The notes under the pieces were generated by a model that did not search any database, had not been told where the DNA came from, and saw only the letters and a list, made by a program, of their open reading frames with translations. The translations under genes and the position numbers were made by a program. A stretch of DNA of 64,000 nt from Geodermatophilus saharensis (GTDB taxonomy: Bacteria > Actinomycetota > Actinomycetes > Mycobacteriales > Geodermatophilaceae), in assembly GCF_900188205.1 (NCBI RefSeq), contig NZ_FZOH01000002.1:1-64000 (forward strand). The letters are read 5' to 3'. Position 1 is the stretch's first letter. Each line of letters begins with the position of its first letter. This document shows, one piece after another, positions 5,208-38,800 of the stretch.

Positions 5208-5447
5208 TCAGGCCCCCGGCAGGTGCAGCTCGACGTCCTCGATGACCGGGTTGGCCAGCAGCGTCTCGGCGATCTGCTCGAGCGCGGCCCGGTCGGGCGT
5301 GCCCTCGACGTCGAGGACGAAGTGCTTGCCCTGGCGGACCCCGGTGACCTGCGTGTGGCCGAGGCGGCCGAGCGCGCCGAGCACCGCCTGCCCCTGGGGG
5401 TCGGAGATCTCGGGCTTGAGGACGACGTCCACGACCACCTGAGGCAC
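5208..5447 (-). CDS. purS: phosphoribosylformylglycinamidine synthase subunit PurS
   Basis: PurS is the roughly 80-residue bridging subunit of the PurSQL complex. From the GTG at 5447 the protein is 79 residues with the [17 protein letters not shown] opening of the family. An in-frame GTG at 5480 would add 11 residues unlike PurS. The 5447 start was chosen because it gives the usual length and has GGGAG just upstream, although that ribosome site is very close. Its upstream region is occupied by the palindrome cluster 5481-5609. Confidence 0.92.
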
Positions 5448-5480
5448 GGCTCCCGAGCGTACCGGGGCCCGCGCCCTCAC

Positions 5481-5609
5481 CGAGATCGGCGATCTCGTAC
5501 GCCGGCGTCGAGATCACGGGATCTCGACGCCGAGGTGCCTCCCTCCCGCCGAGATCACGTGATCTCGACGCGGGAGGAGGGTCGCTGCGGTCGAGATCGC
5601 GTGATCTCG
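5481..5609. repeat. cluster of four GAGATC...GATCTC palindromes (family A, copies A1-A4)
   Basis: Four palindromes lie in 129 bp: 5481-5497 (GAGATC-GGC-GATCTC), 5503-5532 (GAGATC-ACGG-GATCTC within CGGCGTC/GACGCCG arms), 5538-5580 (GAGATC-ACGT-GATCTC within CTCCCGC/GCGGGAG arms) and 5592-5609 (GAGATC-GCGT-GATCTC). The six-base arms are constant, while the outer arms differ between copies yet stay self-complementary, as in REP-like hairpin elements. The last copy abuts the stop codon of the nuclease-like gene 5610-6482. Two more copies lie on its other side. Confidence 0.85.
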
Positions 5610-6482
5610 TCAGCGGAGCGCTGCTCGCACGGCCGCGATGACCTCGCCCGGGCGCCCGAGGACGTCGGCCGAGGTGAAGCGGAGCACGGTCCACCCGGCG
5701 GCGACCAGGCGGTTCTGCCGGCGCAGGTCGCTGACGAAGACGTCGCGGTCGCGGTGGACGTCCCCGTCGAACTCCACGACGAGACGGTGCTCGGGCCAGG
5801 CCAGGTCGACGCGGGCCACGAACCCTCCCGCGTCACGGATCTCGTGCTGGACGACGGGAGCCGGTACGCGGGCCTGGTGCAACAACCAGCGGAGCACGGA
5901 CTCCATGGGTGACTCGGATCGCACGTCGGCTGTGGGGAGAACCACCCTGGCCCGGGCCGCACCGCGACCCGTCGGCCGGCGCGTCAGCTGACGCTCGAGG
6001 TCGGGGACCGTGCACAGGCCGGCCAGGACCTGGTCGGTCGCCGCCAGCAGGGCCGCGGGCTCGAGGACGGCGGCCAGGTCCCGCCAGGTGCGCGACGGGC
6101 TGGTGACCGGCTGCCCCCACCGGTGCGTCACCTCGTCGTCGTGCAGGGGCAGACGGTGCACGAGCCGGTCGCGCCGGCTCTCCGCCCGGGTGGGTCCCGG
6201 GACGGTCAGGTCGACGCGCCGGTCGGCGCCGTCCTGCAGCGGGAGCTGCAGACCCCACAGCTCCGCAGCCGTGCGGTGGCTGACGACAGCACTCGGCGGC
6301 GCGGTGAGCAGCACGGCGGCGACCCGAGCGCCGACGTCGTCCGCCAGCGCCCGCGGCAGGTAGGTGTCACGTGACAGTCGGTGGACCAAGGGGTCGCGCA
6401 GGTGCCTGTCGCCGAGCCCCGCGGCGTGGGCGGCGGCTCGGGTGGTCGGTCCGGAGATGCGGCGACGGCGTCGGCTGGGCAC
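5610..6482 (-). CDS. solitary AbiEi-like / DUF559 endonuclease-domain protein, flanked by palindromes
   Basis: This 290-residue protein has an N-terminal basic stretch and a middle region ([13 protein letters not shown], residues about 67-79) resembling AbiEi-type antitoxin proteins. The C-terminal domain (residues about 188-290) resembles DUF559, a Vsr-like PD-(D/E)XK nuclease fold. Candidate catalytic residues are Glu190/Glu194 (SESPMES), Asp226 and Glu237-Phe-Asp239-Gly. No ATG suits the frame. The GTG at 6482 was chosen because it is the first in-frame start giving family length. No AbiEii toxin gene lies next to it. Four palindromes of one family follow it and two precede it. A second gene of this kind is at 37575-38567. 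Nuclease activity is inferred from family only. Confidence 0.75.
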
Positions 6483-6532
6483 CGCGGCACTCTGCCGTGA
6501 CAGCCGCCAGCCCTGCTGTCGCTGTCCACAGC

Positions 6533-6598
6533 CCCGTCCAGATCCCGTGATCTCGACGGGAGAGGGCCCCCGACGCGTCGAGATCACGTGATCTCGAC
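6533..6598. repeat. two GAGATC...GATCTC palindromes (family A, copies A5-A6)
   Basis: Copy A5 (6533-6560) has CCCGTC/GACGGG arms around CAGATC-CCGT-GATCTC. Copy A6 (6577-6598) is a perfect 22-bp palindrome centred on CACGTG. They lie between the hydrolase stop at 6617 and the nuclease-like gene start at 6482, so this family brackets that gene on both sides. Confidence 0.85.
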
Positions 6599-6616: not shown

Positions 6617-7387
6617 TCAGGGGGCCGACGGGGACAGCAGCGACCAGACGGCGTCCGGGGCCTCCCAGTGCGCGTTGTGGCCGGCGCCCTCGATCACCAC
6701 CGCGTCGGGGTCGACCCGCCGCATCGCGGGCAGGCCCACCATCGGGTCCGCCGAGCCGGCCGCCAGCCGCAGGGGCGCGACCGAGCGTCGCAGCACCTCC
6801 TCGACCGGCGGGCCGACGGCGCCGAACGCACGGGGGTCGAGAGCCGGCGTCCACCCGCCGTCGACCTCCCGGACACCGGCGGCGGCCACCCCGGAGGAGG
6901 GGTCCACGAGTCCGGTCAGCCCGGCCAGCCGCAGGTGCCGCTCGGCGGCCTCCTCCCGCGTGGCGAACACCTGCGGGGGACGGGACGCGAGGCGGCGGGC
7001 GCCGGCCTCCTCCTCGGGCGTCCACTCGATCTTGACGCCGACCGCGACCACCCGGGCCACCTCGACGCCGTACCACCCACCGGCGAGCACCGCGCCGACG
7101 ACGCCGCCGAAGGAGTGCCCGAGCACCGTCACCCGCGCGGCACCGGCCTCGGCCGCGAGCGACGCCACGTCCGCGGCGTGCGCCGCGTAGCCGTAGGGCG
7201 GCTCGGCCAGCGACCGGCCGTGCCCGCGCAGGTCCGGCACCGCCCAGGACCCGGCCCAGGAGCGCTCGACCAGCGGCAGCAGCCGGTCCCACACCGCGCC
7301 GGTGGCACCGAGCCCGTGCAGCAGGAGCAACAGGTCGCCGCCCGAGCCTCCGGAGCGGTAGGTGATGCCGGCGCGCGTGGAGGACAC
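6617..7387 (-). CDS. alpha/beta hydrolase downstream of purC
   Basis: A 256-residue alpha/beta-hydrolase. It has the oxyanion strand LLLLLHGLGATG (residues about 20-31), the nucleophile elbow GHSFGG with Ser92, and the catalytic His in GHNAHWE near the C-terminus. The GTG start lies one base after the purC stop, so it is translated with purC and purB. The substrate is unknown; cytosolic, with no signal peptide. Confidence 0.85.
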   Translation of the reverse strand: MSSTRAGITYRSGGSGGDLLLLLHGLGATGAVWDRLLPLVERSWAGSWAVPDLRGHGRSLAEPPYGYAAHAADVASLAAEAGAARVTVLGHSFGGVVGAVLAGGWYGVEVARVVAVGVKIEWTPEEEAGARRLASRPPQVFATREEAAERHLRLAGLTGLVDPSSGVAAAGVREVDGGWTPALDPRAFGAVGPPVEEVLRRSVAPLRLAAGSADPMVGLPAMRRVDPDAVVIEGAGHNAHWEAPDAVWSLLSPSAP

Positions 7388-14603: not shown

Positions 14604-14624
14604 GACGAGATCGGCGATCTCGTC
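14604..14624. repeat. GAGATC...GATCTC palindrome (family A, copy A7)
   Basis: The 21-bp palindrome GACGAGATC-GGC-GATCTCGTC sits between the convergent stops of the glycerophosphodiesterase and purA. Its core equals copy A1 at 5481. Here no nuclease gene is adjacent, so this is a solo copy that may serve as a terminator. Confidence 0.8.

Positions 14625-35357: not shown

Positions 35358-35361
<4 letters not shown>
34612..35361 (-). CDS. grpE: nucleotide exchange factor GrpE
   Basis: A 249-residue exchange factor for DnaK. The long helix ([26 protein letters not shown]) and the beta-wing region with [12 protein letters not shown] are present. The ATG at 35361 was chosen because it overlaps the dnaK stop by ATGA and gives the [11 protein letters not shown] opening common in related actinobacteria. 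The ATG at 35199 would give a shorter GrpE. The C-terminal 35 residues are low-complexity Ala/Gly/Pro. Confidence 0.94.
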
Positions 35362-37235
<1,874 letters not shown>

Positions 37236-37301
37236 GGAGCTGGCTCCTCTTCCGTGTGCGTGCGGGTGCTGTGCTGGGTCGTGTGGCGAGCTGGTGTCCG
37301 C

Positions 37302-37322
37302 CTTGCGCGGGGTCCACTCAAC
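37302..37322. promoter_or_regulatory. HAIR operator (HspR-binding) upstream of dnaK
   Basis: Read on the minus strand, GTTGAGT-N7-GCGCAAG matches the HAIR consensus at 11 of 14 arm bases. It lies about 65 bp from the dnaK ATG, the usual place for autoregulation of the dnaK operon by HspR. Confidence 0.8.
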
Positions 37323-37440
37323 TTTCCTGCCCACCCTAACGGCACGCCTCGCGCCGGTGTTCCCGGGGTCACCACGACACGTCTCCGTGACTCGGGTCAC
37401 AGGGGTCCGGGCCGGCCCGCGCACGATCACTTCCCACCGT

Positions 37441-37499
37441 CCTCACCGCGCGGTACCCGACCTCGCGCTACGGGACGAGGTCGCGCACCACCCGGTGAG
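37441..37499. repeat. hairpin repeat (family B, upstream copy)
   Basis: A 59-bp element with CTCACCG / CGGTGAG outer arms and GGTACCCGACCTCG / CGAGGTCGCGCACC inner arms. It aligns with 38572-38630 over its length with most bases identical, in the same orientation. The nuclease-like gene lies between the two copies. Since this copy lies upstream of both flanking genes, a terminator role is unlikely. Confidence 0.8.
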
Positions 37500-37574: not shown

Positions 37575-38567
37575 GTGCACCCCGTTCTCCGAGCCGCAGC
37601 CGAACGCCAGGGGGGCCTGCTCACGGCCCTGGATGCCCGCCGGGCGGGATACGGGCACGACGAGATCCGGTCCCTGCGCTCCACCGGGGAGTGGGTGCGA
37701 CTGCAGCGGGGCGTCCACACGACGGCGGAGCGACCGGCCCGCCTGGGCGGCCGTCCCCACGCCGTCGACTGCCTCGCCACCCTGCTGTTCCTCGACCGGC
37801 CCGGCGCCGTCGTCAGCCACGGCTCGGCCGCGCGCCTCCTCGGCCTCCCGGTGTCGGACGGCCTGGAACGGACGGTCCGGCTCACCGATCCGGACCAGTG
37901 GCGCAGGGGCTCGACCTTCCGGATGAACCGCGCCCCGTTGGACGCCGACGAGGTGGTCCGGCGCGGCCCCCTCCGCCTCACGTCACCGGCTCGCACGCTC
38001 GTCGACTGCGCCCGGGAGTGGGAACTCGAGCACGCCGTCGTCGCGATGGACGCCGCTCTGCTCGCCGGGGCGACGACAGCAGGCGAACTGGTGCGCGTCG
38101 CCGCCGCGCAGCACTGCTGGCGGGGCACACCCAGGTCCCGGCGCGCCGTCGGGCTGGCCGACGGGCGCGCCGAGTCACCGCTGGAGACCCGGGGCCGCCT
38201 GCGGCTCGTCGGGTCGGGCCTGCCGGCGCCCGAGCTGCAGGTCGAGATCCGCAGCCAGGGTCGCCTGGTGGGGGTCGTCGACGCCTGGTTCGACGGCGCC
38301 GCCGTCGCGGTCGAGTTCGACGGCCGGGTCACGTACACCGACCCGTGGCGCGACCGCACGGCGCGGCAGGTCCTGTGGGAGGAGAAGCGGCGCGAGGACA
38401 AGCTCCGCGCTCTCGGCACCCGCGTGGTCCGGATTGTCGACGCCGACCTCGGCGACCGCTGGCCGACCCTCGCCGCGGAGGTCGCGGCACTCCTGGCCAT
38501 CCCGGGGCCGGCGGTCCGACGCTTCACCGCGACTGCGCGGGCACGGGGCCGGCGACGGTCGGCCTGA
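37575..38567 (+). CDS. solitary AbiEi-like / DUF559 endonuclease-domain protein, second copy type
   Basis: A 330-residue protein. The N-terminus (QGGLLTALDARRAG, about 12-25, then GEWVRLQRGVH) is an AbiEi-type winged-helix antitoxin-like domain, and VVSHGSAARLLGLP follows. The C-terminal DUF559/Vsr-like domain has candidate catalytic residues Glu200/Glu204 (AESPLET), Asp236, and Glu247-Phe-Asp249-Gly, with a basic helix EEKRREDKLRALG. The GTG at 37575 gives the expected start. No AbiEii partner is adjacent. Family-B hairpin repeats flank it on both sides. It resembles the protein of 5610-6482 in layout but is clearly diverged. DNA binding or cleavage is inference. Confidence 0.78.
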   Translation: MHPVLRAAAERQGGLLTALDARRAGYGHDEIRSLRSTGEWVRLQRGVHTTAERPARLGGRPHAVDCLATLLFLDRPGAVVSHGSAARLLGLPVSDGLERTVRLTDPDQWRRGSTFRMNRAPLDADEVVRRGPLRLTSPARTLVDCAREWELEHAVVAMDAALLAGATTAGELVRVAAAQHCWRGTPRSRRAVGLADGRAESPLETRGRLRLVGSGLPAPELQVEIRSQGRLVGVVDAWFDGAAVAVEFDGRVTYTDPWRDRTARQVLWEEKRREDKLRALGTRVVRIVDADLGDRWPTLAAEVAALLAIPGPAVRRFTATARARGRRRSA

Positions 38568-38571
38568 GAGC

Positions 38572-38630
38572 CCTCACCGTGTGGTGCCCGACCTCGCGCT
38601 GCGCAGTGAGGTCGGGCACCACACCGCGCG
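38572..38630. repeat. hairpin repeat (family B, downstream copy)
   Basis: GTGTGGTGCCCGACCTC / GAGGTCGGGCACCACAC arms form a 17-bp perfect stem around an 11-base loop that contains GCGCTGCGC. It is a direct repeat of 37441-37499 and begins 4 bp after the nuclease-like gene stop. Confidence 0.82.
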
Positions 38631-38800
38631 GACACGCGCCGGGGCCGACACCCCGGGTGAGGACCGTCACTGTCGCTGCCGGCGCCCTCCCCGCGGCGAC
38701 GCACCCGGGGACGGCCGACGCAGCGAACGGGCCGGTCGACCCCACGGCGGGTGGGCGGTGAGCACCGTCGACGGCGCCGGAGGAGGGCGCGGCGCCCCGG

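Follow-up and report, generated by a model that had tools for sequence, protein, structure and literature searches.

AbiEi-DUF559 nuclease genes are paired with cognate palindromic elements, and we consider this pairing well supported and hold it with high confidence. The observations behind it are elements that bracket the genes on both sides, element families specific to protein subfamilies, co-divergence of element and protein, an association of copy number with the resident gene, dispersal over the genome and the occurrence of solo elements. For the locus described here the explanation we favour, at somewhat better than even confidence, is that it forms a REPtron-like module around a nuclease with no relationship to RAYT, in which the protein would spread the elements. 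The protein probably recognises its palindromes; that it spreads them may fairly be supposed, and cleavage of the element is predicted. A REP-type family paired with a nuclease, following the logic of RAYTs, had been proposed in an earlier note on this DNA. This proposal is borne out by brackets that are two-sided, specific to subfamilies and track the protein, and further by dispersed copies, which tend to match the bracket type of the resident gene.

The window gene, its protein and its palindromes

The window, the whole stretch of 64,000 nucleotides that was analysed, belongs to a genome of 4.89 Mb (G000). Its AbiEi-DUF559 gene lies between purS (5208-5480) on one side and an alpha/beta hydrolase gene (6617-7387) on the other (Table 1). 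Since the adjoining genes encode PurS and an alpha/beta hydrolase, the gene is without an adjacent toxin partner, and no cognate DUF1814 toxin gene was found among the immediate neighbours checked.

Table 1. Positions of the genes, brackets and hairpins in the window.
Feature	Position	Strand	Basis or remark
Downstream hairpin, 3-bp-loop subtype (GAGATCGGCGATCTC)	5482..5496	.	pattern search
Downstream bracket hairpin, 4-bp loop	5510..5525	.	pattern search
Downstream bracket hairpin	5551..5566	.	pattern search; 41 bp from 5510..5525 hairpin
Downstream bracket hairpin	5593..5608	.	pattern search; 42 bp from 5551..5566 hairpin
AbiEi-DUF559 nuclease gene, 290 aa, start GTG	5613..6482	-	stop codon 5610-5612
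CTGTGGAC box, between upstream bracket and start codon	6524..6531	-	CTGTGGAY counts in relatives
Upstream bracket hairpin with a single altered arm base (CAGATC..GATCTC)	6539..6554	.	
Upstream bracket hairpin	6580..6595	.	pattern search
Lone dispersed hairpin, 3-bp-loop subtype	14607..14621	.	pattern search
Paralogue upstream bracket, different sequence family	37442..37499	.	hairpin score 14.0
Diverged nuclease paralogue, start codon inferred	37575..38567	+	39% identity over 230 aa; AbiEi E 1.1e-14
Paralogue downstream bracket	38579..38624	.	hairpin score 17.0; 38574-38633 DNA fold z -4.8

The protein joins an AbiEi-antitoxin-like N-terminal fold to a Vsr/homing-endonuclease-like nuclease domain. 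Fold comparison and a domain search both place an AbiEi domain in it. The N-terminal ~186 residues align to the two-domain fold of the type IV toxin-antitoxin proteins AbiEi of S. agalactiae (6y8q) and Rv2827c (1zel) with an rmsd of 6.2 and 4.5, respectively, and the domains are therefore shifted. Unlike type IV AbiEi, the protein carries an added nuclease domain and has no toxin gene immediately adjacent. The C-terminal ~100 residues have the fold of Vsr endonuclease and I-Bth0305I and share their conserved acidic and His residues. In difference to these enzymes the nuclease does not stand alone, and dispersed palindromes bracket its gene. In 61 sequences D226, H243, D252 and R255 of the PD-(D/E)XK active site are invariant and E237 and D239 nearly so, and the nuclease domain is under purifying selection. 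In Foldseek itself the best match had an E of 0.0095, so that none came within E <=0.001, which counts against the REPtron-like reading. A role in a defence system was considered and rejected, as PADLOC returned only AbiEi domains and a marginal ZorE match. Among the matches listed the nearest relative comes from Geodermatophilus sp. SYSU D00684 (86% identity), and at least 1297 relatives were obtained in one search.

The six palindromes reported earlier at the gene, four downstream and two upstream, were all found, one of the upstream pair with a changed arm base; the exact pattern misses this hairpin (6539-6554) because its first base is C and not G. The exact GAGATC...GATCTC pattern has six places in the 64 kb, five at the gene and one at 14607, against 0.01 expected. 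At the gene the 4-bp-loop hairpins are spaced by 41-42 bp, the 3-bp-loop hairpin at 5482 lies 28 bp from its neighbour, and the stretch 5504-5572 folds as DNA with -29.9 kcal/mol (z -6.6). The complementarity that had been claimed for the variable outer arms survives only weakly in the 52 hairpins of G000: next to the arms, positions one and three hardly vary, position two is paired in 32 hairpins where 23.4 would be expected, and beyond three bases pairing is at the chance level. Strong outer-arm covariation is thus not supported for G000. The G000 hairpins are mostly flanked by G(T/C)C and G(A/G)C, and a GTAG/GTRG foot was not seen beside them.

Near the upstream bracket, tens of bases 5' of the start codon, the window and relatives have a conserved CTGTGGAC box, which we take to resemble a DnaA box. 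Of 170 relatives, 117 have CTGTGGAY upstream of the gene in sense and 19 in antisense orientation, and for either strand 3 have it downstream; CTGTGGAC is present in 0.4% of control windows (n=2330). At dispersed copies a box of this type was seen in 0 of 40 and 0 of 23 cases (0/63 in total). The box goes with the gene and not with the element.

Brackets of related genes

A relative at E<=1e-20 is present in all 26 genus genomes searched, with 134 matches in total. In many relatives from Geodermatophilus and Blastococcus, and in some from Actinoplanes and Chloroflexi, the gene stands between two copies of an inverted-repeat element. When the flanks of 30 loci were read, many had elements of ~55-65 bp on both sides, whose sequences differ among the loci (GAGATC..GATCTC, GAGATCTGCACAGTGG.., GAGTCATGCGAACTCGTGG.. 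and others), and the left-right match was at least 17 in 25 of them. For 80 named loci, some of which are the same genes as in the 96-locus genus set described below, this score was reached in 44 compared to 4 of 150 cross-locus pairs. The closest 32 of these loci include 29 with such a match and the 48 more distant ones 15, so that the bracket is far from universal among the latter. Flank hairpins scoring at least 14 were found upstream in 40 of 79, downstream in 29 of 80 and on both sides in 23, in contrast to 4 of 1785 control windows.

The genus set of 96 loci comprises the 30 loci read first, 60 chosen roughly by E-value and six G000 paralogues; the 38 of the 134 genus matches that lie outside it are mostly weaker, partial or near contig ends. 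A left-right match of at least 18 was obtained for 51 of the 96 loci; random pseudo-genes reached it in 4 of 400 cases and cross-locus pairs in 22 of 400. For a match of at least 15 the numbers are 64, 23 and 39, respectively. Some of the cross-locus pairs combine loci of the same subfamily. The remaining 45 loci score below 18 in the ungapped left-right test, which counts against the REPtron-like reading. At genus loci without a match the bracket is either absent or carries indels and was missed by the ungapped test.

Further away, the bracket of a relative from Actinoplanes liguriensis was matched 41 times in forward orientation in its own genome and 0 times in five other actinobacterial genomes. 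For a palindrome taken from the bracket of a Chloroflexi relative (L136), three MAGs that contain related genes gave 13, 13 and 12 places, three further MAGs 2, 1 and 0, and three actinobacteria none. Upstream of the nuclease gene at L179, from a Chloroflexi MAG, the bracket element (TCGCGACTAACGAGG units) is repeated in tandem.

Bracket families follow protein subfamilies. Of 90 genus loci, 54 have a bracket match of at least 16, and over these the protein score ratio and the bracket match correlate with r 0.53, a value reached by 0 of 999 permutations. Brackets are shared (match of at least 16) by 12 of 12 pairs with a protein ratio >0.8, by 25 of 56 at 0.7-0.8, 16 of 159 at 0.6-0.7, 3 of 113 at 0.5-0.6 and 0 of 1091 below 0.5. 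Co-divergence would be expected by linkage alone for any flanking DNA and to this extent counts against the REPtron-like reading. However, linkage does not explain why one private sequence is shared by the two sides of a gene.

The same can be followed within G000. The upstream and downstream brackets of the window paralogue (GTGCCCGACCTCGCG..) match each other with a score of 24, and Pfam gave no match for 37728-38567 within this gene. In the part of G000 searched, one further copy of a 13-mer from this bracket was seen, at L033:5813. The ORF at 35358-37430 on the minus strand beside the paralogue presumably encodes DnaK. Four of the seven other G000 relatives have a left-right match of at least 18, each with its own sequence (C11:37773, which is the one in the window, C10:690007, C18:111532 and C18:138538). 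The match is below 18 at C20:80681, C16:311962 and C10:352818. Of these, C20:80681 has a hairpin on either side, but the two differ in sequence, and C10:352818 has no left-right match. Clear bracket hairpins were not seen at C16:311962, C18:292295 and C16:149303. When the brackets of five other G000 paralogues were searched as exact 13-15-mers in 605 kb of G000 sequence, four were not seen elsewhere and the fifth had one additional copy, which again counts against the REPtron-like reading.

Dispersed copies and the comparison with REPtrons

Genome-wide, GAGATC...GATCTC has 53 places in G000 compared to 1 for the reversed control pattern. In the G000 sequence covered by a script, 52 distinct hairpins (3-4 bp loops) and 23 doublets were counted. 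As most places are doublets with a distance of 41-42 bp, the usual unit consists of two small tandem hairpins in a REPIN-like layout, and the gene has an array of them on each side. Only around the nuclease gene do two sites lie ~1 kb apart. The earlier note had named palindromes equally common at unrelated genes, and in genomes without such a DUF559 gene, as a refutation, and the outcome of this check is mixed. The palindromes stand mostly at unrelated genes, which is what dispersed copies would show. According to a crude GC3-based ORF caller 20 of 25 sites are outside called ORFs. A search for the Y1 (HUH) transposase PF01797 gave 0 matches in G000 and was positive in 5 of 14 control genomes, and with no Y1_Tnp match a RAYT proper was rejected for G000.

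How many dispersed copies of an element a genome has tends to depend on which bracket its nuclease gene carries, although orphan families are an exception. The 4-bp-loop hairpin has 47, 44, 26 and 14 places in the genomes with the cognate bracket (G000, G019, G002 and G009, respectively) and 0-5 in the other 22 genus genomes. The 3-bp-loop form has 5 places in G000 and 0 in G019, G002 and G009, and is common in G003 (28), G013 (22) and G022 (20). Against expectation it has 19 places in G016, where the gene is bracketed by CACATCGGCGATGTGG; among other non-cognate genomes G024, G015 and G012 have 7 each and G007 has 6. The type-2 arm, counted on both strands, has 36 places in G003, 23 in G024, 21 in G008, 15 in G005 and 12 in G011, all of which contain a type-2 gene. 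It further has 27 places in G041 and 17 in G015, where no type-2 gene was found, 2-6 in G006, G009, G002, G012 and G020, and 0 in 14 of 21 non-cognate genomes. Rank tests of copy number against cognate status, which we assigned ourselves, gave p values of 0.0002 to 0.001 with shared ancestry ignored. In G003 two nuclease genes have two bracket types, and both element families are dispersed. The orphan families (type-2 in G041 and G015, 3-bp-loop in G016) count against the REPtron-like reading; with no cognate gene found for them, these three genomes are candidates for recent gene loss.

A loose form of the pattern has 0-15 places in sixteen genomes of other families in the order, and therefore only strict patterns discriminate. 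This loose pattern gave a divided answer on the earlier expectation that the palindromes should be scarce where their gene is missing. In genomes whose gene has another bracket they are few in G005 (0), G004 (1) and G021 (1) and more frequent in G016 (25), G024 (13), G012 (12) and G015 (10).

REPtrons are described as tnpAREP genes that are often flanked by their own REP family, with one family per gene type, and that apparently do not transpose as a unit (PMC6006769, PMC8266576). The arrangement seen here is alike in several respects. The gene is bordered by its own repeats and each gene type has its own family; several gene types can occur in one genome (two in G003) and not every paralogue is clearly bracketed; the repeats are dispersed as hairpin doublets, largely intergenic, and the gene is mostly found at one locus. 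It differs in that the protein is an AbiEi domain joined to PD-(D/E)XK and not a Y1 HUH transposase, that the G000 elements lack the GTAG foot and that copies come in tens, not hundreds. That so similar an arrangement is found around an unrelated enzyme points to convergence.

In the REPtron-like module that we propose, the AbiEi-type domain would recognise the palindromic element of 55-60 bp (two hairpins or one long inverted repeat), and the C-terminal Vsr/I-Bth0305I-like PD-(D/E)XK domain would nick or cut the DNA at the element. In favour of this are the binding of inverted repeats described for AbiEi antitoxins (PMC7319586) and the conservation of fold and active site. Host repair or copying could then carry the element to other intergenic sites. 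The gene would remain mostly stationary with a cognate copy on each side, and the sequences of element and protein would diverge together.

To our knowledge HUH RAYTs are the only enzymes that have been connected with dispersed REP palindromes in bacteria. A literature search brought up no link between DUF559 or AbiEi-DUF559 proteins and dispersed palindromes in those parts of the sources that it covered. We give an even chance to the broader proposal that AbiEi-Vsr fusions from Actinomycetota and Chloroflexota are a second, independent REP-dispersing class. Each would have a private palindrome that it recognises and spreads, a bacterium could hold several orthogonal pairs, and an operator binder of the antitoxin type would have turned into a repeat-spreading enzyme. 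If true, REP palindromes would have a second enzyme class with a chemistry different from that of the HUH RAYTs, the very large family of solitary DUF559/AbiEi proteins would gain a role, and many diverged natural protein-palindrome pairs would be available as a test set for co-evolving DNA recognition.

Locus history and element mobility

A purS match was obtained in 25 genus genomes, and in 18 of them the nuclease gene adjoins it. The module is thus old at the pur locus and not a recent insertion, which corrects the earlier note, where its position had been compared to that of an insertion. Relatives differ at this site and have the gene with brackets, a solo element, or neither as far as seen. 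Reading 420 bp upstream of purS by eye, we found a solo element and no gene in G014, G004 and G041, neither gene nor element in G012 and G018, and a different sequence without element in G010 and G013. G041, which has 27 type-2 places in total, retains a solo type-2 element beside purS and looks as if it had lost the gene. At L081, L084, L085 and L088 the nuclease gene is located away from purS.

These states of the pur site, together with the loci away from purS, would also suit a homing-type selfish gene, whose nuclease would cut a solo element so that repair from the donor copies in element, gene and element, the dispersed copies being sites or scars. The top fold match of the nuclease domain, the homing endonuclease I-Bth0305I, points in the same direction. 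However, homing leaves unexplained the tens of dispersed copies per genome and their tendency to match the resident bracket type, and both brackets are complete elements and not target halves. We regard it as unlikely.

In 40 type-2 copies from relatives no target-site duplication exceeded the threshold (offsets -4 to 7, lengths 3-6). A MITE with target-site duplication was rejected, as none stood out in these copies. In 38 type-2 copies the covariation score of the whole structure is higher than in all 500 shuffles, and the number of double-change pairs (9 against 8.6 expected) is not above the shuffles; the ends of these 38 copies were chosen by exact pattern, and their invariance is uninformative.

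Inverted repeats around a gene and dispersed repeat copies are also features of TIRtrons and MITEs, but the module has no transposase and no target-site duplication was seen. That the elements are MITEs of an unrelated transposase which flank these genes by chance is very improbable in our view, although they are palindromic, dispersed and in this sense MITE-like, and some families are orphaned. Against it, each of the different DUF559 subfamilies, several of which can occur in one genome, is associated with a particular bracket family, and protein and bracket have changed together. The 40 copies examined gave no conspicuous target-site duplication, and among the G000 and type-2 matches listed elements lie ~1 kb apart only at DUF559 genes.

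At the one orthologous region studied no clean filled/empty pair was found, which counts against the REPtron-like reading; instead, this intergenic region holds different hairpin families in different genomes, as if a hairpin were retained. This would agree with a regulatory role, in which the AbiEi-like domain would bind at the bracket to keep its own gene repressed, and the dispersed elements would be retained operators or terminators. AbiEi antitoxins are described as binding inverted repeats and regulating their own expression (PMC7319586), the distance of 41-42 bp corresponds to about four helical turns, and the copies are largely intergenic (the 20 of 25 sites of the crude caller). Regulation does not account for brackets on both sides of the gene, nor does it give a role to a nuclease domain under purifying selection. 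The CTGTGGAC box is found upstream of the genes but at none of the 63 dispersed copies, and terminators need no shared end sequences. We consider this explanation quite unlikely but, like homing, a serious rival, and the REPtron-like module remains the one we prefer.

The site orthologous to L249 carries type-1 or type-2 elements in other species and yet another hairpin in G014 (L257). At L258-L261 and L263, which are orthologous to L249 as well, we observed a hairpin family with a CGCCACTCGC..CTCG(Y)GGCGG core and C-rich/G-rich arms.
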